A DNA stretch of 64,000 nucleotides from Parvibaculaceae bacterium PLY_AMNH_Bact1 (GTDB taxonomy: Bacteria > Pseudomonadota > Alphaproteobacteria > Parvibaculales > Parvibaculaceae), in the NCBI GenBank assembly GCA_032881465.1, contig CP126168.1, positions 248,001-312,000 on the forward strand, written 5' to 3'. Position 1 is the stretch's first letter; each line of letters starts with the position of its first letter. The position numbers and the translations under genes were made by a program. The notes under the pieces are model-generated. The model worked only from the letters and a program-made list of their open reading frames with translations. It was not told the origin of the DNA and searched no databases. Shown in pieces: positions 9,046 to 63,242 of the stretch.

Positions 9046-9894
9046 CTACTTCATCAACAGCGTGTGACCAATAGAAAAGGCGTTTTCCAGATAGTCGGAA
9101 AGCGCCTTTGCTGTTTTGGCAGTACTCAGTACTTCGTCGCCGGTTGCAATTGCACCAACAAACCCTTGCGTGTGCCAGTGTCCTGGCGCAGGCGCGTCAG
9201 GTAGAGCCGAGGCGTCCAAGTGAGGCCATGGATTGACGTAGAAATAGGGCTGCGCATAGCTCTCATCTCCAGGTGACATCCCGACGCCGATGCCCTTAGC
9301 CGTTTCCGCATCACCGGTCTCCAGGCTGACATAAGTGGCAATGTCGAAATGGTGAGGCCAACACCTTACAGGACTGGGGCCTGGGGTTAGTTCGGCTTGA
9401 TCTGCGGCCAATCTTTCGAGCGCACCACCTGCAAGGTCAAACCACCCAGCGAGAGACGCAAGGCCTTCCGGGAGCGCGTCAGGTACCCTTGCAATAGCCG
9501 CGACATCGCTGGGAAGGTCATAGGGGAGTGAAACGTCGGCGGCGCGCTTCAATGCAACGCTCTCAAGTGCATCATCGAGCCAGGCGGCTGCTTCCGCGAA
9601 AGTGTGACCGGTAAGTTGGTAGGAGGATGTGCCGGTGGCGACGTCGATGAGGGTGAGCTCAAATGGAGAGAGCGAGAGGCCAACATAAACCTCACCATTT
9701 GCGCCATGGAGTGGCTGGGACACAAACCTTTGTGTCTCACCGTCCCAACCAAGGTTGGAGTGACTGTCGTCAGGCGATGCCTCAAGGTTGGCCCGGGCTG
9801 CCTTTGTCAGGAGTTGCGCCGCCCCATGGGCGAGTGCACGTGCGGGCCCGAGTTCTGTCGGTGGTGTTTCCTTTATCTGCTGGTGCTGTGTCAT
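9046..9894 (-). CDS. Uncharacterised protein, resembles DUF5996
   Basis: A 282-residue soluble protein that I do not recognise with certainty. The middle has a CWPHHFDIATYVSL string, then a QPYFYVNPWPHLD motif and a GHWHTQGFVGAI motif; this arrangement recalls DUF5996 proteins. No signal peptide or membrane segment is visible. It starts 4 bp after the stop of the Rieske-glutamate synthase gene, and its GAGG ribosome site lies in that gene's end, so it is the last gene of a three-gene operon. Function is unknown; the conserved His and Trp residues suggest a ligand or metal site, which is inference only. Confidence 0.75.
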   Translation of the reverse strand: MTQHQQIKETPPTELGPARALAHGAAQLLTKAARANLEASPDDSHSNLGWDGETQRFVSQPLHGANGEVYVGLSLSPFELTLIDVATGTSSYQLTGHTFAEAAAWLDDALESVALKRAADVSLPYDLPSDVAAIARVPDALPEGLASLAGWFDLAGGALERLAADQAELTPGPSPVRCWPHHFDIATYVSLETGDAETAKGIGVGMSPGDESYAQPYFYVNPWPHLDASALPDAPAPGHWHTQGFVGAIATGDEVLSTAKTAKALSDYLENAFSIGHTLLMK

Positions 9895-9898
9895 GTGT

Positions 9899-11515
9899 TC
9901 ACCTCATTCCGCCATAGGCGATGCCAGAGAGGTCCGCCATTTCGTGCTTCCAGGTGGTTAGATCATCTTGCGAAAATTGGGACAAATGTGAGTGCCCGCA
10001 GGCGCGCGCCATAACCTTCATCAATTCTGTTGAAGCCTCAAAGAAATTTTTGAGTTGGTGGGCGGATTTCTCGATCACCAGGCGGTTCATCAGATGAGGC
10101 TTCTGTGTTGCGATGCCAACCGGACAATTGTTTGTATGGCAGGCGCGCATCGCAATGCATCCAATGGCTTGCATTGCGGCATTGGAAACGGCGATTGCAT
10201 CGGCGCCCAGCGCAAGGGCTTTCACGAAATCTGCCGGTTTACGCAGGCCACCGGTGATCACGAGGGTCACGTCCTTTCGACCAGCTTGGTCAAGGTGACG
10301 TCTGGCGCGTGCAAGGGCCGGGATGGTTGGCACTGAAATATTGTCCCGGAAGATGATGGGGGCAGCGCCGGTGCCGCCGCCGCGGCCATCAAGGATCACA
10401 TAGTCGACACCAACATCAAGCGCCGCATCGATGTCCTTTTCAATGTGTTGCGCGGAGAGCTTATAGCCGATCGGTATGCCACCCGCTCGTGACCGTACTT
10501 CATCGGCAAACTCTTTGATTTGCGAAACCTCCGTCCAATCTGGGAAGCGCGGCGGTGAAATGGCGGACTCGCCTTCATTGAGACCGCGAACCTCCGCGAT
10601 CTTACCCTTCACTTTGTTACCTGGCAGGTGGCCGCCTGTGCCGGTTTTGGCACCCTGTCCACCTTTGAAATGAAACGCCTGAACCTTGTTTAGTTTGTCC
10701 CAATCAAAGCCGAACCGGGCAGATGCCAGTTCATAGATGTATCGTGAATTGGCCTGCTGTTCTTCCGGCAGCATGCCGCCTTCGCCAGAGCAGATCCCCG
10801 TCCCGGCGAGATCTGCCCCGCGCGCAAGCGCCACTTTGGCAGGCTCCGAGAGCGCACCAAAACTCATGTCAGACACCATCAACGGGATATCGAGTGTCAG
10901 CGGTTTTTGCGCGTTGGGACCGATGACGACTTCAGTTCCAACATCATCTTCGTCCAACAGGGGCGGCCTATGAAGTTGCGCAGTTAGCAGTTGGATATCG
11001 TCCCAGTCGGGAAGTTCAATACGGGGCACGCCCATCGCATCGACGACACCATGATGACCGGTCTTTGACAGGCCATCTTTTGCATATTGTTGAATGAGCC
11101 CGTTATAGGGTTCCTCTTCTGTGCCATGGCTGGTGTCGGCATAGAGGCCGAGATAATCATCCCGGTTGAATGGCTGAGGGTTTTTCTCCGCCCAGGCGGT
11201 GATCTCATCCTCGTCCACATAGACTTTTCCAGCTTTTACCCAGGATGTGAATTTTTCCAGCGCTTCAGAATTGTTGTACTCAGACACACCCGTATCGAGC
11301 CGATAGTCCCAATTGTGAACGCCACAAATAAGGTTGTCATTGTCATCAACGAAACCATCGGACATGAGAGCGCCGCGATGGAGACACCGTCCGTAGAAGA
11401 CGGAGACTTCCTTGTCGAACCGAACGATCACAAGGTCAACTGTGCCGACGAGCGCGTAGCACGGCTCTCGGTCTTTCAGATCATTGAGTTTGGCGATCAC
11501 TACTTTTTTCATCAC
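9899..11515 (-). CDS. Rieske-fused FMN glutamate synthase-like protein
   Basis: A 538-residue fusion. The first 100 residues form a Rieske [2Fe-2S] ferredoxin domain with Cys44, His46, Cys64 and His67 (CLH and CGVH). The rest is the FMN-binding synthase barrel of glutamate synthases, with SDMSFGALSEPAKVALARGA, GGQGAKTGTGGHLPG, a YVILDGRGGGTGAAP phosphate/FMN region and the HTNNCPVGIATQ cluster motif. The glutaminase domain of GltB is absent. The Rieske part may pass electrons to the FMN, replacing GltD; that is inference. It lies 16 bp after the antiporter gene and 4 bp before the next gene, so all three are one operon. Confidence 0.88.
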   Translation of the reverse strand: MMKKVVIAKLNDLKDREPCYALVGTVDLVIVRFDKEVSVFYGRCLHRGALMSDGFVDDNDNLICGVHNWDYRLDTGVSEYNNSEALEKFTSWVKAGKVYVDEDEITAWAEKNPQPFNRDDYLGLYADTSHGTEEEPYNGLIQQYAKDGLSKTGHHGVVDAMGVPRIELPDWDDIQLLTAQLHRPPLLDEDDVGTEVVIGPNAQKPLTLDIPLMVSDMSFGALSEPAKVALARGADLAGTGICSGEGGMLPEEQQANSRYIYELASARFGFDWDKLNKVQAFHFKGGQGAKTGTGGHLPGNKVKGKIAEVRGLNEGESAISPPRFPDWTEVSQIKEFADEVRSRAGGIPIGYKLSAQHIEKDIDAALDVGVDYVILDGRGGGTGAAPIIFRDNISVPTIPALARARRHLDQAGRKDVTLVITGGLRKPADFVKALALGADAIAVSNAAMQAIGCIAMRACHTNNCPVGIATQKPHLMNRLVIEKSAHQLKNFFEASTELMKVMARACGHSHLSQFSQDDLTTWKHEMADLSGIAYGGMR

Positions 11516-11531
11516 GGGTCCTGTTGGTGAG

Positions 11532-12785
11532 TTAGGTGTCGTCAGTTATGAGCGGTTTTGCTGAATGAGTAATGGGTTCGGCCTCAGGGCATTTACCCTT
11601 TGCCCCAACGTGAGCGCCGTACCAGCGTGCAGCGGGCAAAGCGGAGAGGCCATGAAGAAACGCGCTGATCCATACCGCGTTGATCGCGATATGGAGAATG
11701 GGCTCAGCAATCTCCATGTCGATTTGTTGAACAATTAGGAGCGCAAACAATGCGGTGGCGAGACCTCGAGGGCCAAACCAGCCAAAAAAGATCCGCGTCG
11801 TGGGGGAGGCATCGGTTCCGATAAGCGATATCCAAATGGCAAGCGGGCGTACGACAAACAGACTGATGAGGATGAGGGAAAGCGTCGACCAGGTGAGATG
11901 CTGGATTGCCTCTGGCACGAGCGCGGCGCCGAGAAGGAAAAAGGCGGCCCATGTCAGGAGCTGACCTTCGCTCTCGGTGAATTCGTAGATGAACTTACAG
12001 CGACCCTTCACCACATTGCCGAAGCAGAGGCCAGCTACAAAGGCAGAGATGAAGCCATTGCCATCGACCAATGTTGCGGCGAGATAGGCAGCGCCAGCCA
12101 GTGCGATGGCACCAACACCTTCATAAGTGTCGGACGTGAAGTCGCGGGATTTTGCCCAGATCAGAACCCGCCCACCCAGAAACCCCATGGCGATGCCGAC
12201 AAGAGGCCCAAGGATCAGCTGTTTGGCACCAAACAAAGCCCAGTCGACACCGTTCTGGTCCATCGCTTCTGCTGTCAGGCTTGCAAAGAGGAGAATGGCC
12301 GGCAGGGCAATGCCGTCATTCAGTCCGCTCTCAACAGTGAGTGCGCGGCGGGGGCGTTCCGGCACATCTGGATTGGTGACCACCGCCTGACCTAGAGCTG
12401 CGTCGGTTGGTGCGAGAATGGCTGCGACGAGAACGAGAGCCACCAGCGGCCATCCTGGTAGAAACGGCACAGCGGCGATGGTACCCAATGCGATGGTAAG
12501 GGGCAGGCCGATCAGCAGCATGCGCTGTGGCCAGACATGCCGTTCTTTCAAAGCATCAAGATCAATTTGCGAGGCATCTAGAAAAAGCAGAACGACCAGC
12601 GCGATTTCCGCCACCAGATGAAGTGTTGTCTCCGCTTCGCCGTGCAGCATCATGCCTGACTGGGATAGAAGAAAGCCAAAGCTCAAAAAGACCATAGGCG
12701 CGGTAATGACGGTGGACGTCAACCGCTTGGCGATCATCGTATAGCCCATCGTAAAGACGGCAGCGATCAAGAGCACCGAACCCAT
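11532..12785 (-). CDS. NhaP-type cation:proton antiporter
   Basis: A 417-residue CPA1-family sodium or potassium/proton antiporter of the inner membrane, with about 12 hydrophobic segments. The LAPTDAALGQAVV stretch near residue 125 and the following SGLNDGIALP segment are the signature ion-site helices of this family. A GGFFG-like FFGWFGPRGLATALFALLIV segment lies near the end. No regulatory RCK domain follows. A GGGGGGAAC ribosome site precedes the ATG. It is first in an operon with the Rieske-glutamate synthase and the DUF5996-like protein, an unusual pairing that may link ion balance to nitrogen or redox metabolism. Confidence 0.88.
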   Translation of the reverse strand: MGSVLLIAAVFTMGYTMIAKRLTSTVITAPMVFLSFGFLLSQSGMMLHGEAETTLHLVAEIALVVLLFLDASQIDLDALKERHVWPQRMLLIGLPLTIALGTIAAVPFLPGWPLVALVLVAAILAPTDAALGQAVVTNPDVPERPRRALTVESGLNDGIALPAILLFASLTAEAMDQNGVDWALFGAKQLILGPLVGIAMGFLGGRVLIWAKSRDFTSDTYEGVGAIALAGAAYLAATLVDGNGFISAFVAGLCFGNVVKGRCKFIYEFTESEGQLLTWAAFFLLGAALVPEAIQHLTWSTLSLILISLFVVRPLAIWISLIGTDASPTTRIFFGWFGPRGLATALFALLIVQQIDMEIAEPILHIAINAVWISAFLHGLSALPAARWYGAHVGAKGKCPEAEPITHSAKPLITDDT

Positions 12786-46774: not shown

Positions 46775-47554
46775 CTAGATAAGACCGGCGTATGAGCCGC
46801 CGTCGAGTTGAAGGTTTTGACCGGAGATAAAGCCGGCCTGGGCACTGCAAAGAAATGCACAAGCATCTCCAAACTCCTCTGGATCCCCGAGGCGTTTTGC
46901 AGCAATGGTCTCTGCCATTTCCGCGCGGGCTTCGTCGCGCGTAATGCCTTTGAACTGAATGGCAAGCTGGGCCATCTGTTCCTGCCGGTCCGTGTCAAAC
47001 CGCTCCGGCAGCATGTTGTTGAGCGTCACGTTGAAGGGTGCGACATCCTTAGAGAGCCCTTTTGAGAGGGCAGTCAGACCGGCGCGAGCTGTTGTCGACA
47101 GCCCCATGGCACCAATGGGTGTCTTCACCATGGCAGAGGTAATGTTGACGATGCGTCCAAAGCGGCGCTCTTTCATGCCGCCAATGAGAGCCTTGATCAT
47201 AAAGATGGGGGTTAGAAGATTGGCTTCTAATGCCGCTTGCCAGTCATCACGCTCCCATTGTTCGAAAGCGCCGGGGGGGGGACCACCATTATTGTTGACG
47301 AGAATGTCCGCATTGGGCGCCGCGGCAAGGAGCTTGGCACGGCCATCCTCTGTGTTGAGATCCGCAAGAACGGGAGTAACCGTTCCTGCTGCAACAGCCT
47401 CAATGTCAGCCTTTGCTTTTTCTAGCGTTTCCTGCGTCTGGCCGTTAATCACCACATTGGCGCCTTCGCCCGCGAGCGAGGCTGCACAGGCTTTGCCGAG
47501 ACCGCGAGATGACGCGCAGACGATGGCTGTCTTTCCTTTAAGCCCGAGATCCAT
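46775..47554 (-). CDS. Short-chain dehydrogenase/reductase
   Basis: A 259-residue SDR. The NAD(P) motif is CASSRGLGKA near residue 13, in place of the classic TGxxxGxG; NNNGGPPPG follows near residue 87. The catalytic Tyr-Lys site is altered: after ITSAMVKTPIGAMGLSTTARAGL the YxxxK position reads STTARAG, so this is a divergent SDR (the 3-oxoacyl-ACP reductase-like group with a substituted Tyr), and its activity is uncertain. It ends in GQNLQLDGGSYAGLI. It overlaps the hydroxylase gene by 17 nt and is second in the operon. Confidence 0.85.
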   Translation of the reverse strand: MDLGLKGKTAIVCASSRGLGKACAASLAGEGANVVINGQTQETLEKAKADIEAVAAGTVTPVLADLNTEDGRAKLLAAAPNADILVNNNGGPPPGAFEQWERDDWQAALEANLLTPIFMIKALIGGMKERRFGRIVNITSAMVKTPIGAMGLSTTARAGLTALSKGLSKDVAPFNVTLNNMLPERFDTDRQEQMAQLAIQFKGITRDEARAEMAETIAAKRLGDPEEFGDACAFLCSAQAGFISGQNLQLDGGSYAGLI

Positions 47555-49235
47555 GAAGGAGCTCCTTTTCTTTGTGTGAGAGAAGTGAGGTCAGGTCGTT
47601 TGAGAGCTGCTCTGCCGAACAGACTGAGGCATACCGTTGCGCAATATGCCGATCAGGCCGTATGAGAAGGGCTCCCTGATCCGGCAGGTCGGTGAACCCG
47701 TGCCACCCGGGGTTAATCTCGAAGTCCAGCCCTTCGACCAGCAATGCGATGGGTGTTGTGAATGCTTTAACCCGCTCTGCCCACTCACCACCATCTGGAC
47801 CCGCCAAGAGAGTGAAACGGTCCATAGGAATCAAAGACAGTAGCGACTCGGTTTCACCGTCCTTCTGCACCCATTGGTGAGGAAGAATGGCGCCAGCCTG
47901 TGTGGATGGGACGTAACGGCTGATGTCTATGGGGGCACTTCTGTCGACAGGTGCTGCGCCAATGACCGCATCTGACACATAGCGGTAGCCAAGCTGGAGA
48001 TTGAGACTGTCAAAATGGGGTCGCTGAAGCTCAATGGCCGGGGCGAGCTCCGGGAAAACTGCCGGGTCCTTGCACATGGCGTCAAACCGCTCCCGCGTTT
48101 TCTCTGGGTCAGCACCATAAAGCGCGGCGAAGAGGTCGAACATCTTCCCAGCATTCTCCAGACTCTGTTCGGTATTGATTTGCGCAACCGGACGTCGTTC
48201 GGTCTCATAGCTGTCCAATAGGGTCTCACCCGCCCAACCGCTTTCTACAGCAGCGATTTTCCAAGCAAGGTTCTGCGCGTCGCCAATGCCGGTATTGAGC
48301 CCAAGGCCGCCGGTGGGTGGAAACCGGTGGGCAGCATCGCCAGCAAGGAAGATGCGGCCCGCGCGATAGCGCTCTGCAACCTGCGCGCACATAGTCCAGG
48401 GGCCAACATTCTTGATCTGAACATCAGGAAGGTCTGCGCCTACCGCTTTCTTAATCAGGGAAATGCATGTCGCATCGTCGAACGTGTCTGGCGAAGTGGT
48501 CGCTGGATCAAACCCATGCATCAACACCCACGTCTTGCCCTGATCATAGGCAATCAATGCGCCCTGAGCATCCGGCTCGAAGAGGAAATAGAGGATGCCG
48601 GGCCTGTCTGCCACAAGAGGGCGTAAATCCGCTTCGAAATGGATCATCACATTGTGCTGGAGGCCCTCAGGACCTTCCAGCCCAATGCCAAGCGCAGAAC
48701 GAATAGGTGAGTTGGCACCATCGGCGGCTATCGCATAGCGGCAAGAGACCTTCTCCGGCCCCGCTTCTGTAGGCGCCAGAGAGGCAATGACACCATCAGC
48801 GGTTTCCGTAACGCTTGTGCATTCCGTTCCCCGCAGAAGGGTGACCTGTGGACAGGAAGCCAGTTCCGTCTCCAACAGCTCTTCAAAATCAGGCTGAGCG
48901 ATATTGGAGAGCGGGAAGGGCGTCAGGTCTTTGACATCGTCTTGCTGGCGTTCATAGGGCAGATGTCCAAACTGTGCCCCAGTTAGCGTCGAGACAAAAC
49001 GGACCCATCCGGCTTCATCCGGCGGTGCACCGGTCGTGCGTACTTTTTCAGCTGAAATGCCTGCCGTCTCGCAGATCTCTAGTGTTCGCGAGTTCACTGC
49101 ATGCGCTTTGGGCGCGGTCAGGCGAGTTTGGCGACGATCTACAATGATGGACTGAACGCCCTGGCGAGCCAGTAGAAGTGCGGCCATTTGTCCGACGGGT
49201 CCAGCACCTACAATAAGCACTTGCGTTTCAAGCAT
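47538..49235 (-). CDS. FAD-dependent aromatic hydroxylase (PHBH fold)
   Basis: A 565-residue flavoprotein monooxygenase of the FAD_binding_3 group (MhpA, PgaE, TetX relatives). The FAD motif VGAGPVGQMAALLLARQG is near residue 7, the middle DG motif is YAIADGANSPIRSALGI near residue 170, and GDAAHRFPPTGGLGLNTGIGDAQNLAWKIA near residue 295 closes the FAD site. The C-terminal 170 residues form the thioredoxin-like tail seen in phenol hydroxylases. It is the first gene of a four-gene operon and is read away from a TetR gene across a 121-bp region with clear repeats. Substrate: an aromatic or polyketide compound. Confidence 0.9.
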   Translation of the reverse strand: MLETQVLIVGAGPVGQMAALLLARQGVQSIIVDRRQTRLTAPKAHAVNSRTLEICETAGISAEKVRTTGAPPDEAGWVRFVSTLTGAQFGHLPYERQQDDVKDLTPFPLSNIAQPDFEELLETELASCPQVTLLRGTECTSVTETADGVIASLAPTEAGPEKVSCRYAIAADGANSPIRSALGIGLEGPEGLQHNVMIHFEADLRPLVADRPGILYFLFEPDAQGALIAYDQGKTWVLMHGFDPATTSPDTFDDATCISLIKKAVGADLPDVQIKNVGPWTMCAQVAERYRAGRIFLAGDAAHRFPPTGGLGLNTGIGDAQNLAWKIAAVESGWAGETLLDSYETERRPVAQINTEQSLENAGKMFDLFAALYGADPEKTRERFDAMCKDPAVFPELAPAIELQRPHFDSLNLQLGYRYVSDAVIGAAPVDRSAPIDISRYVPSTQAGAILPHQWVQKDGETESLLSLIPMDRFTLLAGPDGGEWAERVKAFTTPIALLVEGLDFEINPGWHGFTDLPDQGALLIRPDRHIAQRYASVCSAEQLSNDLTSLLSHKEKELLHGSRA

Positions 49236-49249
49236 GATATCTCCATAAA

Positions 49250-49282
49250 TGAGAGAACTCTCAAAAATGAGAGATATGTCAT
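49250..49282. promoter_or_regulatory. Probable TetR operator pair
   Basis: A perfect palindrome TGAGAG-AA-CTCTCA at 49250-49263, then at 49267-49282 ATGAGAGATATGTCAT, which repeats the TGAGAG half-site. Located 15 bp upstream of the hydroxylase start and 75 bp upstream of the TetR start, it would let TetR repress both genes. Sequence is clear, binding is inferred. Confidence 0.65.
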
Positions 49283-49356
49283 AAATGGAAATGAGTCAAA
49301 TCACGAGCATTTCTGGGGTTTAATAGGGTCCAATTGACCGGAAAGGAGATTCCTAC

Positions 49357-49986
49357 GTGTCATCACAGGTACTTTTTCGAGATCAGGGCAAAGGATTGCC
49401 CAAGCGCGACCGCACGCGCCTGGCGCTGATCGACAGTACGGTGGAGGTGATCGCGCTGAAGGGGATGGACCTCGCAAAGATCAGCGACATCACGGAACAT
49501 GCAGGGCTCGCCAATGGCACCTTCTACAACCACTTTGCGGACAAGGATGAAATCCTGACCGAAGCAGCTCAGCGTGTCGCCGTTGAGATAGCGCGTGAGA
49601 TCGACAATGAGATGAGGTCCGTGGAAAGCGCTGTTGCTCGGATGGTTACTGCGACGACGCGTGCGATCCGTATGGCAGTTGGTGAGTCTGCTTGGGGTGC
49701 CGTGATCATCGGCGCGCTTCAGCACCTGCCGCCTGTGCGCGGTGACATTTTGCAGTTTCTAAGAGCTGATCTTCAGCGCGGTGTCGATCAAAAGACATTC
49801 GATATTGAACTTGATGAGTTTTTCCTGGATCAGATCGCAAGCCTGATCATTGTCAGCATCCGCACCCAAATTGAAACAGGTGTCGATCCTGTTAAAACCG
49901 CCAGGACCTGCGAAAGCATTCTGCGTCTTTGTGGGTTTAGTCGGGCCAAAGCCCAGAAAGCCGTAAAAACACACACACCGGTTTGA
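49357..49986 (+). CDS. TetR-family transcriptional regulator
   Basis: A 209-residue repressor. The HTH is at residues about 23-70: RTRLALIDSTVEVIALKGMDLAKISDITEHAGLANGTFYNHFADKDEIL, a textbook TetR domain. The remaining residues are helical and form the ligand-binding domain. The GTG start is supported by an AAGGAG ribosome site 9 nt before it. It is divergent from the hydroxylase operon with a palindrome between them, so it most likely senses that pathway's substrate. Confidence 0.9.
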   Translation: MSSQVLFRDQGKGLPKRDRTRLALIDSTVEVIALKGMDLAKISDITEHAGLANGTFYNHFADKDEILTEAAQRVAVEIAREIDNEMRSVESAVARMVTATTRAIRMAVGESAWGAVIIGALQHLPPVRGDILQFLRADLQRGVDQKTFDIELDEFFLDQIASLIIVSIRTQIETGVDPVKTARTCESILRLCGFSRAKAQKAVKTHTPV

Positions 49987-50059
49987 TCTGGTTTATGCTG
50001 TTTGTTTCTGCTCCTCTGACTGCCTACCATGTGGTCAACATTGATGGGGGGGTGGGTAA

Positions 50060-51001
50060 ATGAAACAGCAAGTCAAACAGTCAAACGCTGGTGTTGTGGT
50101 GGCTCTGATCGCCGCACTTACAATAGTGGCGCCCTTCGGTCCCATGTCTGCGCGGGCAGAGGGTCTGAAATACATCGATGCCAATGGCATTAGCTTTGCC
50201 TACCTCGAAGAGGGCGAGGGACCACTTGTGCTTCTGTTTCATGGATACCCGGAAACGGCCCGCAGTTGGGCGCAAGTACAGCTGCGTATTGCGGCGGCGG
50301 GCTATCGTGTCGTGGCACCCTTCACGCGAGGGTACCCACCAACATCAGCTAGTGAGACGGGAGACTACAGTGTTCGCGCGCTGGGGCAGGATGCATTAGC
50401 GCTGATCGGAGCCTTAGGAGAAGAGCGTGCAATTCTGATTGGTCATGATTGGGGTGCATCGACCGTCTATGAAGCAGCCACAGCAGACCCATCCAAAGTT
50501 GAGAAATTGATTGCTCTGTCAGTTCCTCATGCGCGGGCGGTGGCAGATGATCCGTCAATTTTTTTTGAGGCCCCACACTTTCTCTACTACCAGCTGCCCT
50601 TCATCCGAGAATGGGTGGCAATGAACGACTTCTCGCACATTGATGGCATATACCAGTCTTGGGCACCAAGCTTTGATGTGCCAGCGGCCGAGCTTGCCGA
50701 TATCAAAGCGACCATGGGCGAGCCGGACGCGATAGATGGAGTGCTCGGATATTATTGGTCACTCTTTGACGCAGAGCTGAACGAGGGACGTGCGTCATCT
50801 GCCGAAACTGAGATTACCGTTCCTGCGTTGGTGATCGCCGGCGATGCTGATGGGGCGGTTTCGATTGACCGCTATGCCCTTGCAGAACCCGCCTTCACAG
50901 GCGGATATCGGTTCGAAGCCCTAAACGACATCGGCCACTTTCCCCAACTTGAAGCGCCGGAAAAAGTGGCCGATCTGATAATCGATTTTCTGACAGACTA
51001 G
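50060..51001 (+). CDS. Exported alpha/beta hydrolase, epoxide hydrolase-like
   Basis: A 313-residue alpha/beta-fold protein with a signal peptide (residues 1-33, ending SARA-EG). The oxyanion motif HGYPE is at residues 61-65 and the nucleophile elbow is GHDWGA with Asp130, the pattern of soluble epoxide hydrolases and haloalkane dehalogenases rather than Ser esterases. The acid GDADGAVS and the catalytic His in NDIGHFPQLEAP lie near the end. It is a single gene after tetR and overlaps the convergent acyl-CoA synthetase by 4 nt. Epoxide hydrolysis in the periplasm is the best guess. Confidence 0.85.
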   Translation: MKQQVKQSNAGVVVALIAALTIVAPFGPMSARAEGLKYIDANGISFAYLEEGEGPLVLLFHGYPETARSWAQVQLRIAAAGYRVVAPFTRGYPPTSASETGDYSVRALGQDALALIGALGEERAILIGHDWGASTVYEAATADPSKVEKLIALSVPHARAVADDPSIFFEAPHFLYYQLPFIREWVAMNDFSHIDGIYQSWAPSFDVPAAELADIKATMGEPDAIDGVLGYYWSLFDAELNEGRASSAETEITVPALVIAGDADGAVSIDRYALAEPAFTGGYRFEALNDIGHFPQLEAPEKVADLIIDFLTD

Positions 51002-52713
51002 CTTGCCAGCTTCACGTCCATTGTGTTCCGCAGCTCCTTCTTGAGGAACTTGCCGCTTGCATTGCGCGGCAGGTTTTCCGCTTGCGTCCAGATGTAGCGC
51101 GGGATTTTGTAGGCAGCGAGTTTTGCTTTGCAGAATGCCCGAAGTTCTTCTGCTGATACCGACTTGCCTTTCGCAGGAACAATCACCGCACCGACTTCTT
51201 CGCCAAGGCGATCATCTGGTACGCCAAAGACAACACATTCAGCAACTGCTTCATGCTCAAAAATGGCACTCTCTACCTCGGAGCAGAACACGTTTTCGCC
51301 GCCACGTAGCACCATGTCTTTGGCGCGATCAACGATGAAGATGAACCCGTCTTCGTCGATTTTCACAATGTCGCCGGTGCGCAACCATCCATCCTGGATG
51401 GCTTCTGCTGTGGCTTCTTCCCGGTTGAGATAGCCTTTGATGACCGGTGCGCCTCGCACACACAGCTCGCCAGCTTCCCCAGGCTTCACTTCGTCGCCAT
51501 TAGCATCAATGCACTTGGTTTCGAAGACGGGCATCGCACGGCCCGCACTTGCTGGTTTGTCGACGAAATAGTCAGCGCCAACAGATGTGATAATGCCGCA
51601 GGTTTCGGTCATGCCATAGCCGGTTGATGGCCGCGCATTTTCCATTGTGGTGTCGAGCTTGCCGACCAGGTCAGGTTGCAGCTGTGCCCCGCCACCGCCG
51701 ATGGAGACCATGGTTGATGTGTCTGTCGTTGCAAAGTCGGGATGTGCGATGATTTCTCGAGACATGACAGGTACACCGCTCAGGTGGGTGATTTTTTCAG
51801 CTTCAATCAGACGAAGCGCTTCACCTGCATCCCAGCGATACATGTGTACAAGTTTGCCGCCGCTGACTGTAGCCGCGTGCGCCACGCAATTATTGGCTGT
51901 CACGTGGAAAAGCGGTGTTGCCACCAGGGCTGTCATGGCTGCCGGTTCCGCACTTTGCAGTTCTTTGACAGCGGACTCACCTTCAACCATTGCTAGGGCA
52001 AGGCCCTGGCATTGAGCGGAGAAGGCGATGTTCATAATGTTGTTTACGCATCCGCGATGGGTGAGCTGGGCACCCTTCGGGCGACCTGTCGTACCCGATG
52101 TGTAGAAGATGCAAGCATCATCATCAGGTGCGATGGTGACGTCGGGCATATTTGGCGTCGTCGCCTTGACCTCAGACCAAGGCGTCACGCCTTCGGTACC
52201 CTGTAGCTTCTCAGGAAGACGCACGCCGGCAACCTTCATGTCTGGGAAGGCATCCCGAACTTCAAGGAACCGCTCCAGACGTTCGGCGTCGGCTAGCAGA
52301 ACCTTGGAGTCGGAGTCTTCAAGCCCATACTTCATTTCATCGGCAACCCACCAGGCGTTCATGCCGACGGCAACAGCGCCAATGGAAATAATCGCCCAAT
52401 AAGCGAGCATCCATTCTGGGTAGTTTCGCATTGCAATGGCGACGCGGTCATGCTGTCCAATTCCCTCGGCCGTCAGCCATGCAGCAATGGCGGCCACTTC
52501 GTTGTGGGCATCCGTGTAGGTCCACCGTTCGTCTTGGTAGACAAGATGGTCTTTGTCGCCATGAGCGGCTGTGAGCAGCCAGATATCCCGCAGGCTGGCT
52601 GGTGCATGTTTGAACGTTTTGATCGTCCGGCCGAGCGCGTCAACGGTATCGACTTCGAACATTTGTCCTGGCTGCGTCAATTCAGTCCACGCAGCATCCA
52701 ATTCTTTATACAT
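50998..52713 (-). CDS. Fatty acyl-CoA/AMP-binding synthetase
   Basis: A 571-residue ANL-superfamily enzyme that activates a carboxylic acid with ATP and CoA. Motifs: A3 FYTSGTTGRPKGAQLTHRG near residue 204, A5 STGYGMTETCGI near residue 365, A7 GWLRTGDIVKIDEDGF near residue 460, and A10 NLPRNASGKFLKKELR with the catalytic Lys near the end. The ATG at 52713 is chosen for its GGGGAGG ribosome site; the frame upstream to 52821 lacks one. It is monocistronic. Chain length and substrate are not determinable, but the genes nearby suggest fatty or alicyclic acids. Confidence 0.92.
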   Translation of the reverse strand: MYKELDAAWTELTQPGQMFEVDTVDALGRTIKTFKHAPASLRDIWLLTAAHGDKDHLVYQDERWTYTDAHNEVAAIAAWLTAEGIGQHDRVAIAMRNYPEWMLAYWAIISIGAVAVGMNAWWVADEMKYGLEDSDSKVLLADAERLERFLEVRDAFPDMKVAGVRLPEKLQGTEGVTPWSEVKATTPNMPDVTIAPDDDACIFYTSGTTGRPKGAQLTHRGCVNNIMNIAFSAQCQGLALAMVEGESAVKELQSAEPAAMTALVATPLFHVTANNCVAHAATVSGGKLVHMYRWDAGEALRLIEAEKITHLSGVPVMSREIIAHPDFATTDTSTMVSIGGGGAQLQPDLVGKLDTTMENARPSTGYGMTETCGIITSVGADYFVDKPASAGRAMPVFETKCIDANGDEVKPGEAGELCVRGAPVIKGYLNREEATAEAIQDGWLRTGDIVKIDEDGFIFIVDRAKDMVLRGGENVFCSEVESAIFEHEAVAECVVFGVPDDRLGEEVGAVIVPAKGKSVSAEELRAFCKAKLAAYKIPRYIWTQAENLPRNASGKFLKKELRNTMDVKLAS

Positions 52714-52858
52714 AGGCTGGAAACCTCCCCAGGTTTTCGTTTTCCCATCGATACCCGGAATTGCGAGCAAAAACAACGAGATCACGCAAATGAGCGGGTC
52801 ACAATGTGGATATTTCGCCACTCTGCGCCCCGCCGCTCACTTTGTCAGAGCATTGATC

Positions 52859-55742: not shown

Positions 55743-57731
55743 TCAGAGCAAATCTGAGTCGGAGATGATTTCGACCAAAGCGGGGCCATCGTGAGCCAGG
55801 GCCTCCTTGATGGCCTGAGCGAGCTCCGCCTTGTCTGTCACCTTTATGCCGTGTCCTCCACAAAGGCGCGCATAGGCAGCGAAGCTTGGATTGTGAAGCG
55901 TGGTCTGCCAGACGGGCCATTCGCCTGCTTTCTGCTCCTTTGAGATCTTTCCGAGCTCTGAATTGTTGAGCAGAATGTGGGTGATGTTCATGCCGTATTT
56001 CACCGCTGTGGTGAATTCCGCCATGTACTGCCCAAACCCGCCGTCGCCGGAAACCGAGACGACAGGGCGGTCCGCATATTCCGGGAAATCCTGAACAGCC
56101 GCCCAGGCCCCCATGGCAGCAGGGAACGAGAAGCCGATAGAACCTAGATATCCCGACATCAAGACGTCCTGTTCAGTGCATTCAAAGTAGCGCCCGAAAG
56201 AATAGGTATTGTTCCCAACATCAACGGCGATGACCGCATTTTGAGGTACCAAGTCTGTGAGGGAGGCAAAGATGCTGGCTGAGTTGAGGCCGTCACCCCT
56301 GTCATCCTGAGCACGGCTCTTCTTTTCATCGCGCCAGATCTTCCAACGTTCGGCGACCTCTCCCGTTTGGTCTTCTGCAGCAAGTGTTTTTGGCAGACCG
56401 GATTCAAACGCGGCGAGTGCGCGCCCGATGTCGCCAAGCATCGGACAATCAACAGGGTGTGTCTTCCCAAGATGCATCGGATCGAAGTCGACCTGCACAA
56501 TAGGCTTCGATTTTTCGATACCTGTATGGTCGGAGAATGAGCTTCCCAGCGCGATGAGCAGATCAGCCTCATTCATGAACCAGCTGGCAATCGGCGTGCC
56601 TGAGCGACCAAGTACTCCCGCACCACAAGGATGTTTGTCGGAGATCAGCCCTTTGGCCTTGAAGGTAGTAAGAACTGGCGCCTTGAGCCGATCGGCAAAG
56701 GCAATGACCGCATCCGACGCATCGCGTGCACCATAGCCAGCAATGATGACCGGGCGCTTGGCCTTTGAGATGAGGTCAATTGCTTGTGCAATGGAGGCGT
56801 CAGACGGCGTCACCGCCATGTCGCCGAGCCGTCCGTCAGGGCTTCCTGCTTCGACAGCATCATCAGCAGGGATGGTCTGAACATCATCAGGGAAGATGAG
56901 ATGGGACACATCTCGATTAACAAGCGCGCTGCGACAGGCAAGCGTCATCAGCTCAGCATGCTTGGAAGAGTGCAAAACTGTTTGGGAGAAATGGGCGACG
57001 CTTTCGAATGCCGACGCCAGATCGATCTCCTGGAAAGAGCCAGGTCCGAGCACCTGAACATTGACCTGTCCCGTCAGCGCAAGCGCTGGGGCCCGGTCGA
57101 CTTTGGCATCCCACAAACCCGTAAGAAGATTGGTGGCACCTGGACCTGCAATTGCAAGGCAGGCGGCAGGCTTGCCGGAGAGTTTTGCATATCCGGAGCA
57201 GGCGAAGGCGGCAGCACCTTCGTGGCGAATGCCAATATAGCCAAGCTCACCGTCACGCTCTTTCATGCGCAACGCTTCGGCCACGCCAAGATTGGAATGG
57301 CCCACCATGCCGAAAACCCGTTTGATGCCCCAATTGACCATCGTGTCGGCCATGACATGCGAGATCGTACGTGGGCTTTCGGGTTCGGCGGGCACTTCTA
57401 CATAAACCCCGTCGTCCCGCACATCGACTGGATACATTTGCTGGCCGGTATCTTCATGCCCACCAGGGGGCTTGCCGGTTAGTGGGTCGAAATCCCAGCC
57501 GTGCCAGGGACAGCGCAGCCAGCATTGCCCGTCAATGCCATCTTCAATGGAGCCTTCACCCAAAGGTCCACCTTGGTGGGGACAGCGATTGTCCATGGCA
57601 GCGTATTGACCGGAAAAATGGGTCATCGCGAGGGAGAGTGTGCCAGCCGTGACCGTCATAACGCGACCTTCGGCAAGGTCGTCGACTTCAGCCACTTTCA
57701 CCCAGCTTGTTTCGGAATTCTCAGCAGTCAT
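55743..57731 (-). CDS. Rieske-thiamine diphosphate-dependent enzyme fusion
   Basis: A 662-residue fusion. Residues 8-115 are a Rieske ferredoxin domain with Cys50, His52, Cys74 and His77 (CPHQGG, CPWHGWDF). Residues 122-662 are a full acetolactate synthase/pyruvate oxidase-like ThDP enzyme: catalytic Glu171 in GIRHEGAAAFACSGYA, a central domain, and the ThDP motif starting at GDG (562-564) and ending at NN (589-590). The sequence is continuous without frameshift. A [2Fe-2S] centre could carry electrons from the ThDP intermediate to an acceptor, as in a decarboxylase/oxidase; that is inference. It is a single gene divergent from the hydrolase at 57843. Confidence 0.88.
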   Translation of the reverse strand: MTAENSETSWVKVAEVDDLAEGRVMTVTAGTLSLAMTHFSGQYAAMDNRCPHQGGPLGEGSIEDGIDGQCWLRCPWHGWDFDPLTGKPPGGHEDTGQQMYPVDVRDDGVYVEVPAEPESPRTISHVMADTMVNWGIKRVFGMVGHSNLGVAEALRMKERDGELGYIGIRHEGAAAFACSGYAKLSGKPAACLAIAGPGATNLLTGLWDAKVDRAPALALTGQVNVQVLGPGSFQEIDLASAFESVAHFSQTVLHSSKHAELMTLACRSALVNRDVSHLIFPDDVQTIPADDAVEAGSPDGRLGDMAVTPSDASIAQAIDLISKAKRPVIIAGYGARDASDAVIAFADRLKAPVLTTFKAKGLISDKHPCGAGVLGRSGTPIASWFMNEADLLIALGSSFSDHTGIEKSKPIVQVDFDPMHLGKTHPVDCPMLGDIGRALAAFESGLPKTLAAEDQTGEVAERWKIWRDEKKSRAQDDRGDGLNSASIFASLTDLVPQNAVIAVDVGNNTYSFGRYFECTEQDVLMSGYLGSIGFSFPAAMGAWAAVQDFPEYADRPVVSVSGDGGFGQYMAEFTTAVKYGMNITHILLNNSELGKISKEQKAGEWPVWQTTLHNPSFAAYARLCGGHGIKVTDKAELAQAIKEALAHDGPALVEIISDSDLL

Positions 57732-57759
57732 GAATGCCTCCCAGCAACCTTATGTCCCC

Positions 57760-58939: not shown

Positions 58940-60403
58940 ATGAAGAACGCGCAAAAAAGGATGGACGACGCCACCAGTTATGCTGAGTGGAAAGAAGCGG
59001 CGCACGAGCACGACGTGCTTTCAGGTGCAGAAGACTGGAAGCGCCAGGAGCATTCTAGTCGCTATGACTATGCAACCATCCGCGAGCGTCTTCGGGAAAT
59101 CCGTAAAGCTCGCGACACAGGTGATGATCGCGCTCTGCTGTTTGCCCTAAATGAAGGCATTCACGGCAATCTGGGCGGCATGGGCAAGCCCTCGCTCTAT
59201 ACACAGTCCAAGATTGGCACCAAACGCCTCATCACTGACTATGTTGAAGAGGTGACACGCTCTCTTATTCACATTTCAAAAGTACGTTCCAACGTCATTA
59301 CCAAAGCTGAGAAGCTCGACTTTTTCCATAGAGCAAGCCATTGCTTCGGACGGTCGGCTCTGATGTTGAGCGGCGCTGGCGCGTTAGGGCCCTTCCATAT
59401 CGGTGTGATCAAAACGCTGGCGCAAGAAGGTTTGCTGCCGCGTGTGATTTCTGGATCAAGTGCCGGCGCTCTGACAGCAGCGGTGATCGGGACCCATTCT
59501 GACGAAGAGCTTGTTCCTTTCTTTGAAGCGGACATAGAGATTGAAGCGGCAATTGAAGAGGCGCATGTGACCTCGGTGCTGGGGTGGCGTGACCGCATCC
59601 AGACAGAGGATCTGCGCGAGATGGTTGAGGCCTGGATCCCAGACCTCACATTTGCCGAGGCGTTCCAGCTCACAGGTCGCCACATCAATGTCTCAGTCGC
59701 ACCCACCAAGAAGCTGCAGGCCTCACGTCTGCTGAACGCGATTACCTCGCCGAATGTGCTGGTGCGCGAAGCCGTGATGGCATCTTGCGCTGTGCCTGGC
59801 GTCTTTCCACCGGTCATGCTGATGGCGCGGGATGCTGATGGGGAAAAACAGCCTTATCTCTCAGACATGCGCTGGATTGATGGATCGGTCACCGATGACA
59901 TGCCGGCAAAACGCCTGGCGCGCCTCTATGGTGTGAACCACTTCATTGCAAGCCAGACCAATCCGATCATCCTGTGGACCATTCAAAACCCGAATGGTGA
60001 AAGTGGCCTGTTTGGCCATCTTTGGAATTTGGGCAGCAGGGCCACGAAGGAATGGTTCCGGGCTACCCGCAACTTCTCTGACCAGATGACCCGCAGTCTT
60101 CCGAGCGTGAACTCAGCGCTCAACATGTTCCACTCTGTGGCATTGCAGGAATATACGGCAGACATCAACATCATCCCGCGTCGTCGCTTCTGGGACCCGC
60201 GCAAACTCCTGGCCCCACTCGATCGCGAAGAGATGGAATACCTCATTGAAGAGGGGGAGGCCGCGACCTGGCCACAGGTGGAGATGATCCGCAATTGCAG
60301 CATGATCAGCCACACGCTGGACAATCTGTTGGAAGAAATCGAAGGCGACGTGGTTGGCCTCTATCGGCCGACGGCAACGCCAGTCGGGACGAAAGCCGCA
60401 TAA
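58940..60403 (+). CDS. Patatin-like phospholipase/triacylglycerol lipase with DUF3336
   Basis: A 487-residue lipid acyl hydrolase. The N-terminal 130 residues resemble the DUF3336 domain found in yeast Tgl3/Tgl4-type triacylglycerol lipases and their bacterial relatives. The patatin domain has the oxyanion stretch LSGAGALGPFHIGV near residue 143, the nucleophile Ser174 in SGSSAGAL, and the Asp314-Gly315 dyad in RWIDGSV. No signal peptide, so it acts in the cytosol or on storage granules. It is followed tail to tail by gpsA after 2 bp. Near a wax ester/TAG synthase, a role in mobilising storage lipid is likely. Confidence 0.9.
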   Translation: MKNAQKRMDDATSYAEWKEAAHEHDVLSGAEDWKRQEHSSRYDYATIRERLREIRKARDTGDDRALLFALNEGIHGNLGGMGKPSLYTQSKIGTKRLITDYVEEVTRSLIHISKVRSNVITKAEKLDFFHRASHCFGRSALMLSGAGALGPFHIGVIKTLAQEGLLPRVISGSSAGALTAAVIGTHSDEELVPFFEADIEIEAAIEEAHVTSVLGWRDRIQTEDLREMVEAWIPDLTFAEAFQLTGRHINVSVAPTKKLQASRLLNAITSPNVLVREAVMASCAVPGVFPPVMLMARDADGEKQPYLSDMRWIDGSVTDDMPAKRLARLYGVNHFIASQTNPIILWTIQNPNGESGLFGHLWNLGSRATKEWFRATRNFSDQMTRSLPSVNSALNMFHSVALQEYTADINIIPRRRFWDPRKLLAPLDREEMEYLIEEGEAATWPQVEMIRNCSMISHTLDNLLEEIEGDVVGLYRPTATPVGTKAA

Positions 60404-60405
60404 AG

Positions 60406-61449
60406 CTAACCCGGATCAGCTTCTGACCCGGCGGCCATTCTGAGCAAGCCGCGGAACGCCCGCTGCGGTGTTGAACCGTTCTGCACTACGTTGAAGACTT
60501 CTGCGGCAATCGGCATGGTGACGCCTGCCTCTTCGGCAATCTTCATAACCACCGGTGCACTCTTCACACCTTCGGCCACCATGTGCATCTCGTCGATGAT
60601 CTGCTCAAGCGACTGGCCTTTGCCGAGTTTTTCGCCCACATGACGGTTTCGACTTTGTGGACTGGTGCAGGTCGCGACCAGATCGCCCATCCCGGCCAGA
60701 CCTGCAAAAGTTTCCGCCCGGCCGCCGAGCGCTTCACCGAGCCGGGTGAGTTCGGCAAGGCCGCGGGTGATAACAGCCGCACGGGTATTGTCCCCGGCAC
60801 CTAATCCATCACCCATGCCGACCGCAATCGCGATGATGTTTTTTAAGGCGCCGCCCAGTTCGCAGCCAATCAGGTCGTTGTTCGTGTAGACCCTGAAAAG
60901 TCCTGACTGAAAGACTGACCGAAGTGAGTTGCAGACGGTCTCGTCTTCCATGGCAAGCACACTGGCGGCCGCTGACCCCGCCATTATCTCGCGTGCCAAG
61001 TTGGGACCGGTGAGGACGCCCGGCGGATGACCGGGCAGTACTTCAGAAATGATTTCGGTCATTCTTAATGATGTACCCTGCTCCAACCCTTTAGACAGGC
61101 TGATCACCGGAACCCATGGGCGGATGAAGGGTTTTGCATCTTCGAGCACTTTTCTGAATTGCTGGGAGGGTATCCCCATCACAATGACGTCTGCCTGGGC
61201 AACCGCTTCCTCAAGGGATGTTGTCGCGGTCAGGGTTTCCGGCAGTTTGGCATCTGGCAAGTACTTCTTGTTCGTATTGAGAACGTTAACTTCCGTGGCT
61301 GCATCAGGGTTCCGCAGCCAGAGCTTTGTCTCGGCATTGCGGACAACAAGTGCGGCAACGGTGGTGCCCCAGGACCCGCCCCCTAGCACGCTGACTTTGA
61401 GATGCATCGGGTTATTGCGCTCTTGGCGATTGCGGATCTGGTCGTTCAT
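60406..61449 (-). CDS. gpsA: Glycerol-3-phosphate dehydrogenase [NAD(P)+]
   Basis: Makes sn-glycerol-3-phosphate from dihydroxyacetone phosphate for phospholipid and triacylglycerol synthesis. The nucleotide motif VLGGGSWGTTVAAL is near residue 20, then VPVISLSKGLEQGT with the conserved Lys, LTGPNLAREI, and GGALKNIIAIAVGMGDGLGAGDNTRAAVITRGL with the catalytic Lys. I give the ATG at 61449, which follows GGGGAG at a long spacing; the ATG at 61407 is nearer the family N-terminus but lacks a ribosome site. It faces the patatin gene and is divergent from the wax ester synthase. Confidence 0.93.
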   Translation of the reverse strand: MNDQIRNRQERNNPMHLKVSVLGGGSWGTTVAALVVRNAETKLWLRNPDAATEVNVLNTNKKYLPDAKLPETLTATTSLEEAVAQADVIVMGIPSQQFRKVLEDAKPFIRPWVPVISLSKGLEQGTSLRMTEIISEVLPGHPPGVLTGPNLAREIMAGSAAASVLAMEDETVCNSLRSVFQSGLFRVYTNNDLIGCELGGALKNIIAIAVGMGDGLGAGDNTRAAVITRGLAELTRLGEALGGRAETFAGLAGMGDLVATCTSPQSRNRHVGEKLGKGQSLEQIIDEMHMVAEGVKSAPVVMKIAEEAGVTMPIAAEVFNVVQNGSTPQRAFRGLLRMAAGSEADPG

Positions 61450-61787
61450 ATGGATGGCGTCTCCCCTTACCAACTTGTTTTTAAGGATGTTAAGCGTAAG
61501 TCACGGGTTCTGCCAACCGAGGGAAGGCGGTCGGTGGCGGAAAAATGTCGTAAAAGCAGGAAGTTGGACTGACATAAGGTAAGTCTCTCTGTGTACGATC
61601 AAAGGCAAGACGGGCAAGCGATTGACGAATTGTCAGTTGTGGGGAGCTGATCTTGCCGGAGCATTTCCAGCTGAACGATTCAGCGCCAGGAAATGCGACG
61701 AAATAGAGATCTAGAGCGGTTGTCGTGTTTTCAATCATGCGAGAAGCGATCTAGCGAAGACAAGAACACGCCTGAAGGAAGGGCTCC
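61450..61787. other. Divergent intergenic region between gpsA and the wax ester synthase
   Basis: About 340 bp with no supported gene. It holds the palindrome at 61622-61636, and an AAGGAAGGGCTCC ribosome region before the wax ester synthase. Short open frames on the minus strand show no family likeness. Confidence 0.45.
61622..61636 (+). promoter_or_regulatory. Palindromic candidate operator before the wax ester synthase
   Basis: TTGACGAATTGTCAG matches the BVMO 1 site CTGACGTTTTGTCAG at 12 of 15 positions, with both TGAC and GTCA half-sites intact. It lies 152-166 bp upstream of the start codon, so it would be a distal site or mark a long leader. Confidence 0.4.
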
Positions 61788-63242
61788 ATGCGGCGCATAT
61801 CAAATACTGACGCTTCGTTTTTCTACGCAGACACGCAACGCACACCCAGCGTGGTGGGTGGGTTGATGATCTACGATCAATCAACCGCAGGTCGCGGAAA
61901 GGTTCGCTTTAAAGAGGTCCTTTCCTGGATAGAGGACCGTCTCCATCTCTGGGCACCTTTCACACAGCGCCTGGTGCGCGTGCCTTTTGATCTTGACCTG
62001 CCTTATTTGGCAGAAGATCCAAATTTCGATGTGGAGTTTCATGTCCGTCACCTGTCATTGCCGAAACCAGGCGATTGGCGTCAGCTTTGTATCCTCGCAT
62101 CGCGTCTTTATTCTCGCCCGCTGGACATGAACCGCCCGCTTTGGGAAGTGAATGTTATTGAAGGATTGGACAAGGTCGAGGGACTGCCAAAGGGAAGTTT
62201 CGCGGTTCTGGTAAAGCTTCATCACATGGTGGTCGACGGGATGGGGACCGTCTCGCTTTTGCAGGCGCTCCACTCAGAGAGCCAGACTGCAACGCGGCCG
62301 CGTGCACCCGTAAAAGAAGCTTCCAGCGCCAAGCCATTGCCAAGTGATATGGCGATGATCACAAAATCGCTGCCGTCGCTGGCCAGGCAGCCACTGACGA
62401 CAGCACAGTCGGCGCTCTCGCTGGTGAAGGGCGAATTAAAAGCCCGGCGGCTCAAGTCCGAAAACAACGTAGCAAGCGCGCCGTCGGCGCCCATGACGAG
62501 GTTTAACAAAGAAGTCTCGCCTTACCGCGTCTTTGAAGCGGTGGACTTCAAATTGGATGATTTCAGGCACATCAAAAAACTCGTGGAACGGGCCTCAGTA
62601 AATGATGTGGCCATTGCTGTTTGCGGGGGTGCAATGCGCCGCTATCTCGCCGCAACAAACGAGCTGCCAGAAGAGTCACTGGTCGCGATGTGTCCAATTT
62701 CTGTGCGGACGGCACCAGCAGGCATGGAAGCTGGCAACCAGATCACGGATATGACCGTTGCCATGGGGACAGACATTGCCGATCCCCTGCAACGGCTTCA
62801 GGCGGTGAAAATGCGTACCGATGATGCCAAGCAGTTGGCTCAGACCCGTGGCTCCGAAATGCTGGAAAGTGTGATGGGACTTGTCAGCCCCGCTACGGCA
62901 TCTTGGTTCTTCCGGTCAGCAGAAGGTATGAAGTGGATTTCCCGCATCAAGCCGGTCTGCAATACGTTTGTCTCGAACGTGCCCGGCATTCCCCATGACA
63001 TGTATTTCTCCGGCGCGAAGCTTGTCAGGTCTTATGGCCTGGCACCGCTGGGCGACGGCATGGGGATTTTCCACGCAATCACAGGATACCAAGATCAATT
63101 GTCGGTCTGTGTCACGGCCGACAGAGAAATGCTGCCTGATCCGTCCTTCTATGCGGAGTGCGTGCAGGCATCGTTTGACGAGTACAAAGCACTGGTTGAA
63201 GACGACGATGGGGAAGATCAAACAGTCGTCTATCTTGAATAG
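61788..63242 (+). CDS. Wax ester synthase/diacylglycerol acyltransferase
   Basis: A 484-residue WS/DGAT enzyme that joins acyl-CoA to a fatty alcohol or diacylglycerol, making storage wax ester or triacylglycerol. The catalytic HHMVVDG is at residues 145-151; the PLW motif (residues 117-119) precedes it, and later segments such as ISVRTAPAGMEAGNQI and VSNVPGIPHDMYFSGAKL match the family C-terminal domain. Length is normal. A GAAGGAAGGG ribosome site precedes the ATG. It is followed after 39 bp by a PlsB-type acyltransferase on the same strand, so the two form an operon. Confidence 0.93.
   Translation: MRRISNTDASFFYADTQRTPSVVGGLMIYDQSTAGRGKVRFKEVLSWIEDRLHLWAPFTQRLVRVPFDLDLPYLAEDPNFDVEFHVRHLSLPKPGDWRQLCILASRLYSRPLDMNRPLWEVNVIEGLDKVEGLPKGSFAVLVKLHHMVVDGMGTVSLLQALHSESQTATRPRAPVKEASSAKPLPSDMAMITKSLPSLARQPLTTAQSALSLVKGELKARRLKSENNVASAPSAPMTRFNKEVSPYRVFEAVDFKLDDFRHIKKLVERASVNDVAIAVCGGAMRRYLAATNELPEESLVAMCPISVRTAPAGMEAGNQITDMTVAMGTDIADPLQRLQAVKMRTDDAKQLAQTRGSEMLESVMGLVSPATASWFFRSAEGMKWISRIKPVCNTFVSNVPGIPHDMYFSGAKLVRSYGLAPLGDGMGIFHAITGYQDQLSVCVTADREMLPDPSFYAECVQASFDEYKALVEDDDGEDQTVVYLE

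Follow-up and report, generated by a model that had tools for sequence, protein, structure and literature searches.

A Rieske ferredoxin domain fused to a pyruvate oxidase-like thiamine diphosphate enzyme, and its association with two further Rieske-fused redox proteins

The window analyzed here is a stretch of 64,000 nucleotides from Parvibaculaceae bacterium PLY_AMNH_Bact1 (contig CP126168.1, positions 248,001 to 312,000), and it contains a gene in which a Rieske [2Fe-2S] domain is joined in frame to a thiamine diphosphate (ThDP) enzyme, hereafter Rieske-ThDP. The gene and its parts are listed below in window coordinates.

55743..57731, minus strand: Rieske-ThDP fusion protein, 662 aa, with an ATG start and no internal stop
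57737..57742, minus strand: likely ribosome-binding site GGGAGG, five bases upstream of the Rieske-ThDP ATG (direct sequence reading)
57468..57707, minus strand: Rieske [2Fe-2S] domain, residues 9-88 (Pfam PF00355, E 2.9e-16)
57576..57584, minus strand: Rieske ligands Cys50-x-His52, invariant in 97/97 homologues
57501..57512, minus strand: Rieske ligands Cys74-x-x-His77, invariant in 97/97 homologues
57015..57368, minus strand: TPP_enzyme_N (pyrimidine) domain, residues 122-239 (Pfam E 1e-29)
56409..56792, minus strand: TPP_enzyme_M central domain, residues 314-441 (Pfam E 1.9e-39)
55767..56222, minus strand: TPP_enzyme_C (diphosphate-binding) domain, residues 504-655 (Pfam E 2.8e-35)

All four domain matches exceed the Pfam gathering score, in agreement with an earlier note, made from the sequence alone, which had described an intact Rieske centre and a complete ThDP enzyme in a single chain and had correctly numbered C50, H52, C74, H77, E171, and the GDG...NN motif. 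The TPP_enzyme_N domain holds E171 and an invariant VGHSNLG at residues 143-149, the TPP_enzyme_C domain carries GDG (562-564) and NN (589-590) followed by the invariant LGKI (593-596) and KEQ (598-600), and TPP_enzyme_M is the nucleotide/flavin (FAD)-binding domain in relatives. An AlphaFold2 model, for which the input alignment comprised 48 family members with the plasmid rows left out, has a mean pLDDT of 88.6 and a pTM of 0.84, with the Rieske part at ∼75-90 by ten-residue block; the last strand on the Rieske side runs to residue 114 and the ThDP part opens with a helix at residue 123, so the two parts are modeled without a long linker. The nearest solved relatives of the Rieske domain in a PDB sequence search are the soluble Rieske proteins 3d89, 2qpz, and 1vck, and the domain has the ligand set C-x-H ... 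C-x-x-H without extra disulphide cysteines and is therefore of the dioxygenase-ferredoxin kind. A Rieske non-haem oxygenase is excluded, since Pfam finds only ThDP domains after the Rieske domain and no mononuclear-iron catalytic domain, and the same result makes the “unusual oxygenase” offered as an alternative in the earlier note unlikely.

Other genes in the window include a group of neutral-lipid genes adjoining the fusion gene at 58940-63242 (DUF3336/patatin lipase, glycerol-3-phosphate dehydrogenase GpsA, and wax ester synthase/DGAT) and, at 47538-52821, a cluster of an aromatic-ring FAD monooxygenase, a TetR regulator, an alpha/beta hydrolase, and an acyl-CoA ligase, which is likely catabolic.

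A scan of GTDB species genomes gave at least 582 pattern matches, from which at least 574 relatives were confirmed by tblastn; the fusion architecture was followed in the best 80 of these, retained as loci, which align along almost the entire protein (64-97% identity) and derive from Alpha- and Gammaproteobacteria, Nitrospirales, and one Thermoleophilia MAG. Full-length copies occur within the same genus (96-97% identical), on plasmids of four haloarchaea (Haloferax, Halorubrum, Halorarius, and Salinirubellus; 58-60% identity), and on a plasmid of Mycobacteroides abscessus (54% identity), and in RefSeq the relatives are named only as “thiamine pyrophosphate-binding protein.” Within a Pseudomonadota sample, 9/397 genomes carry the fused protein. 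Chance fusion, frameshift, and assembly error are ruled out as the origin of the reading frame by the near-full-length homologues at 54-97% identity; the one split copy, which is broken in the middle of the ThDP part on a short MAG contig (L094), itself looks like an assembly or frameshift error.

Residues C50, H52, C74, H77, and E171 are unchanged in 97/97 aligned homologues across the same range of identity, which disposes of the possibility, raised in the earlier note, that homologues might never keep the four Rieske ligands. Conservation is strong in the cluster and in the loops on either side of it, and invariant positions in a 55-row alignment comprise A45, N48, G55-L57, E59, G60, E63, R73, P75, W76, G78, D80, G86, P89, G90, and D94. 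A tree built from 25 fused and 23 unfused sequences places the fused proteins in a single clade (SH-aLRT 100), which contains no unfused member and has the pyruvate-oxidase rows as its sister group. The single clade therefore probably reflects a single fusion event, and on the sequence relationships the fusion was probably carried later between bacteria and archaea. It is practically certain that Rieske-ThDP is a real, functional, and conserved fusion. One may still ask whether the Rieske domain is a passenger that binds its cluster and takes no part in catalysis, on an otherwise ordinary FAD pyruvate oxidase with another acceptor, FAD-containing ThDP oxidases that use O2 or quinone as acceptor being well established; the invariance of the ligands from Alpha- and Gammaproteobacteria to haloarchaea and Mycobacteroides, and the absence of unfused members from the clade, make such a passenger quite improbable.

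The closest relatives of the ThDP part are pyruvate oxidases (PoxB and the Bacillus type). In NCBIfam, the top-ranking match is pyruvate oxidase PRK08611 (398.8 bits, the NF006377 cut-off of 742 bits not being reached), with lower scores for NF006591 (306.2 bits, under its 792-bit cut-off) and acetolactate synthase TIGR00118 (295.5 bits, under its 538-bit cut-off). PoxB is the best PDB sequence match, and PoxB 3eya also ranks first by structure (Z 40.5, rmsd 2.6 Å over 515 residues at 27% identity, covering residues 120-661), with HKA synthases and the C. glutamicum PQO ranking within 1-2 Z units of it. Acetolactate synthase as nearest kin is ruled out by the NCBIfam scores and the tree, and the description of the enzyme in the earlier note as acetolactate synthase-like gives way on these grounds, and on the structural ranking, to the pyruvate oxidases.

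Kinship with pyruvate oxidases is accompanied by consistent departures from them. In a comparison that covered five fused members, the flavin-domain motifs GxxFPY and GLxGTKP of pyruvate oxidases are represented by GxSFSxHTGI and GRSGTP, and the central domain keeps some conserved glycines, yet with the pyruvate-oxidase motifs altered; because these motifs are replaced, there is doubt over the flavin and even over oxidative chemistry. The GD[SAG]xN of pyruvate oxidases (GD-x-x-N in most) becomes GHSNLG, and an invariant Lys595 stands where pyruvate oxidases have Phe, Met, or Gln. The loop equivalent to that of Glu483 in Lactobacillus POX (LpPOX) is conserved as LGKISKEQ, with E599. The unusual lysine and histidine, both conserved, may point to a substrate that is not pyruvate and that perhaps bears a second acidic group. 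The main rival to an oxidative reading draws on the altered flavin-domain motifs and on the fact that non-oxidative enzymes (acetolactate synthase, benzaldehyde lyase, and HACL) match almost as well; it supposes non-oxidative ThDP chemistry (carboligation, decarboxylation, or lysis of a 2-oxo or 2-hydroxy acid) under the control of the Rieske domain, which would act as a redox or oxygen/NO sensor or as a structural regulator switching the enzyme on and off. The placement of pyruvate oxidases as nearest kin in the tree speaks against it.

The C-terminus differs as well. A tail is absent beyond residue 662 in five fused members, which stop where the ThDP fold stops, and is present as 23-42 residues in nine unfused relatives. 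The tail of PoxB is said, from the work behind 3ey9/3eya, to dock that enzyme on the membrane. Its absence here is a further point against a passenger Rieske domain on an ordinary oxidase.

Two further Rieske fusions, which the earlier note does not mention, and several other genes recur near Rieske-ThDP, and their copies in the window and in the adjacent part of the same genome, together with one copy of the 255-aa protein from another locus (L098), are listed below (G000, the window's genome; L190 = G000:C1:234000-248500).

9899..11515, minus strand: Rieske domain plus glutamate-synthase FMN/[3Fe-4S] domain (Rieske-GltS), 538 aa (PF00355 + PF01645)
11532..12785, minus strand: Na+(K+)/H+ exchanger family membrane protein, 417 aa (PF00999)
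9046..9894, minus strand: DUF5996-like protein, 282 aa (PF19459 below gathering score)
About G000:C1:238880-240705, minus strand, 8 kb left of the window: pair of genes for the haem-Rieske and 255-aa proteins
L190:5651-6706, minus strand: haem-Rieske protein, YedZ-like with a C-terminal Rieske domain
L190:4881-5651 and L098:4972-5739: 255-aa anchored protein

Rieske-GltS keeps the FMN and synthase-site motifs and the C-x5-C-x4-C [3Fe-4S] motif of glutamate synthase, and no glutaminase domain was found in it with Pfam. Its nearest Rieske-less relatives carry twin CDGSH [2Fe-2S] domains on a catalytic domain that is 66-70% identical, a combination of twin CDGSH and glutamate-synthase FMN domain that has been described as “type 5 CISD” (PMC3174974). 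Rieske-GltS and the twin-CDGSH-GltS proteins (L152-L167) thus have different N-terminal [2Fe-2S] modules, and because CDGSH replaces Rieske on so similar a domain, the N-terminal module can be regarded as an exchangeable 2Fe-2S unit. Judged from the sequences, the swap makes most sense for a module whose role is to carry or sense electrons. In the neighborhoods of CDGSH-GltS, no recurrent partner common with the Rieske module was found except one distant antiporter match. The best NCBIfam relative of the exchanger is the potassium/proton antiporter PRK05326, below cut-off.

The haem-Rieske protein has a 6-TM domain with Arg then His in TM3 and two His in TM5 in 48/48 copies, the haem-ligand pattern against which it was compared being that of YedZ/STEAP (PMC3591440), and by the positive-inside rule its Rieske domain would be cytosolic. 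Just 5′ of the gene (L190 ∼6707-6966), a small TM gene appears, by eye, to be interrupted by an in-frame TAG, and a small TM gene precedes the haem-Rieske gene in other genomes. The 255-aa protein has an N-terminal TM helix and beta domains with invariant Cys166, His179, Cys182, and Cys186, which are a possible metal or cluster site; it matched no known family, and its fold is weakly OB-like, the best PDB match (E 5.8e-3) falling short of confidence.

Neighbor genes were clustered over 79 loci, and partners were counted in the 61 loci of at least 10 kb. Rieske-GltS lies near Rieske-ThDP in 39/61 loci, the Na+/H+ exchanger in 28, and the Ferric_reduct 6-TM protein with C-terminal Rieske domain (haem-Rieske) and the 255-aa anchored protein in 23 each, with DUF5996-type homologues adjoining Rieske-ThDP in about 11 loci. 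In many bacteria, the Rieske-fused partners share an operon with Rieske-ThDP. In four loci from Rhodobacteraceae-like and other genomes (L178, L180, L181, and L182), the set is tightly packed on a single strand in the order exchanger, Rieske-GltS, small TM, haem-Rieske, 255-aa, small TM, and Rieske-ThDP, with some members absent in some of them. In the window's genome these parts are split into three pieces spread over about 67 kb, each of them on the minus strand (haem-Rieske with the 255-aa gene; DUF5996-like, Rieske-GltS, and exchanger at 9046-12785; and Rieske-ThDP), and a search of this genome for a promoter motif common to the three separated transcription units gave only chance-like matches. 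Within the bacterium's family, all three Rieske fusions occur together in 5 genomes and are absent from the other 32. Among the 397 Pseudomonadota genomes, Rieske-GltS is present in 8/9 carriers of Rieske-ThDP (0.29 expected, p 8e-13) and the haem-Rieske protein in 7/9 (p 1.5e-11), p-values that overstate independence, as 6/9 carriers belong to one family. None of the four checked partner genes lies nearby in 15/61 loci, and three genomes (G037, G039, and G450) have Rieske-ThDP without Rieske-GltS; the partners therefore cannot be obligatory, and the loci without them are the other point in favor of a passenger Rieske domain.

Some surroundings suggest stress. An ECF-type sigma factor occurs in 9/79 loci and an anti-sigma-like gene in 7/79, and on haloarchaeal plasmids (L129-L133) the neighbors of Rieske-ThDP include genes for merA/dihydrolipoyl dehydrogenase, DsrE, arsenic resistance, and TauE, a setting that resembles a mobile stress island. 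Genes that are presumably glutathionyl-hydroquinone-reductase-like occur near both Rieske-ThDP and CDGSH-GltS (L091, L071, L115, L201, and L202), and pirin genes lie near CDGSH-GltS and one haloarchaeal copy, neighbors that hint at quinone or electrophile stress. The sigma, anti-sigma-like, and haloarchaeal neighbors suit a non-oxidative enzyme under redox-sensing control, but the partners are redox enzymes too and have a domain of the same type, and with the evidence on both sides this rival is considered rather unlikely. Rieske-ThDP and the two further Rieske-fused redox proteins together suggest an unstudied electron-transfer system.

The direction of electron flow within such a system can be argued both ways. 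Soluble Rieske ferredoxins of the nearest solved type normally feed oxygenases, and the synthase domain present in the sister fusion Rieske-GltS normally consumes electrons (PMC8097209), both of which would fit electrons passing inward from a reductase or membrane cytochrome, with the substrate, an intermediate, or O2 being reduced at the ThDP site in a reductive or oxygenase-like reaction. Pfam detects no mononuclear-iron oxygenase domain, however, and no ferredoxin reductase was recognized among the recurrent neighbors of the 79 loci. To our knowledge, the ThDP redox enzymes described so far are all oxidases or dehydrogenases, and inward flow is on balance improbable.

The preferred reading, in which the Rieske domain would be the electron exit of an oxidative reaction, is given about an even chance. 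Rieske-ThDP would then be a pyruvate-oxidase-type 2-oxo-acid oxidase with an N-terminal Rieske [2Fe-2S] ferredoxin domain: a 2-oxo acid would add to ThDP with loss of CO2, and the enamine intermediate would be oxidized via bound FAD if this is retained and otherwise directly, as the earlier note had supposed, in two one-electron steps, after which the electrons would leave singly by way of the Rieske cluster for a partner protein. Rieske-GltS and the YedZ-like membrane cytochrome with its cytosolic Rieske domain would be the likeliest acceptors, so that a tethered cluster would serve a ThDP oxidase without the tail of its relatives and feed cytosolic partners. The oxidative chemistry, the electron direction, and the docking of partners are all what we infer from the pyruvate-oxidase kinship, the missing tail, the conservation of the cluster, and the association with partners.

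A more extended and doubtful proposal is a Rieske-to-Rieske circuit with two branches. Electrons from a 2-oxo acid might pass from the ThDP fusion to Rieske-GltS for reductive amination to glutamate or a relative, or might cross the membrane by way of the YedZ-like haem-Rieske protein and reach the anchored 255-aa protein, with the whole linked by some form of coupling to the K+/Na+-H+ antiporter and serving as a response to ion or redox stress. Wiring of this kind is not known to us.

The individual parts are of known kinds, and neither their combination nor the set of three Rieske fusions is described in the searchable open-licence literature. No characterized Rieske-ThDP protein was found in PDB sequences, NCBIfam, or open-licence full texts, and within these sources the statement of the earlier note that no characterized enzyme has this layout holds. 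The known acceptors of ThDP oxidations are FAD, quinone, lipoate, and [4Fe-4S] clusters. A built-in Rieske centre, if it is indeed an acceptor, would be a new acceptor type, and Rieske-ThDP would offer a simple setting for following the one-electron chemistry of the ThDP intermediate by EPR. Marine and saline bacteria and haloarchaea carry the family widely, in part on plasmids; the three co-occurring fusions provide a concrete hypothesis for an entire electron-transfer module, and the exchange of Rieske for CDGSH on the glutamate-synthase partner is a ready-made control pair.

Among known systems, the pyruvate oxidases and PQO (E. coli PoxB 3eya, C. glutamicum PQO 9ev6, and the Bacillus PRK08611 type) have the three-domain ThDP fold in common with Rieske-ThDP, which also keeps their catalytic Glu171 and GDG...NN motif, but they lack an N-terminal Rieske domain. 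Acetohydroxyacid (acetolactate) synthase belongs to the same superfamily and fold, and its FQ motif is kept, but it likewise has no N-terminal Rieske domain. The oxidation of a ThDP intermediate with an iron-sulfur cluster as acceptor is established for PFOR/OFOR (PMC5020499), and the likeness to Rieske-ThDP lies in this idea; these enzymes have [4Fe-4S] clusters and other domains, none of which Pfam found in Rieske-ThDP, and a PFOR identity is excluded by the domain content, with neither POR domains nor [4Fe-4S] ligands. Type 5 CISD resembles Rieske-GltS in having an N-terminal 2Fe-2S module on a glutamate-synthase domain and differs in that its module consists of twin CDGSH motifs, which Rieske-GltS does not have, carrying a Rieske domain instead; as a fusion, it differs from Rieske-ThDP. 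The haem-Rieske partner resembles an architecture of FRD superfamily proteins with Rieske that has been listed without a function (PMC3591440). It also has the YedZ haem-ligand pattern in common with MsrQ/YedZ, although its match to MsrQ (E 3.9e-8, 33.1 bits) lies under the 130-bit MsrQ cut-off and no MsrP was recognized among the recurrent neighbors of Rieske-ThDP loci, and it is set apart from MsrQ/YedZ by its Rieske domain and by the neighboring 255-aa anchored protein.
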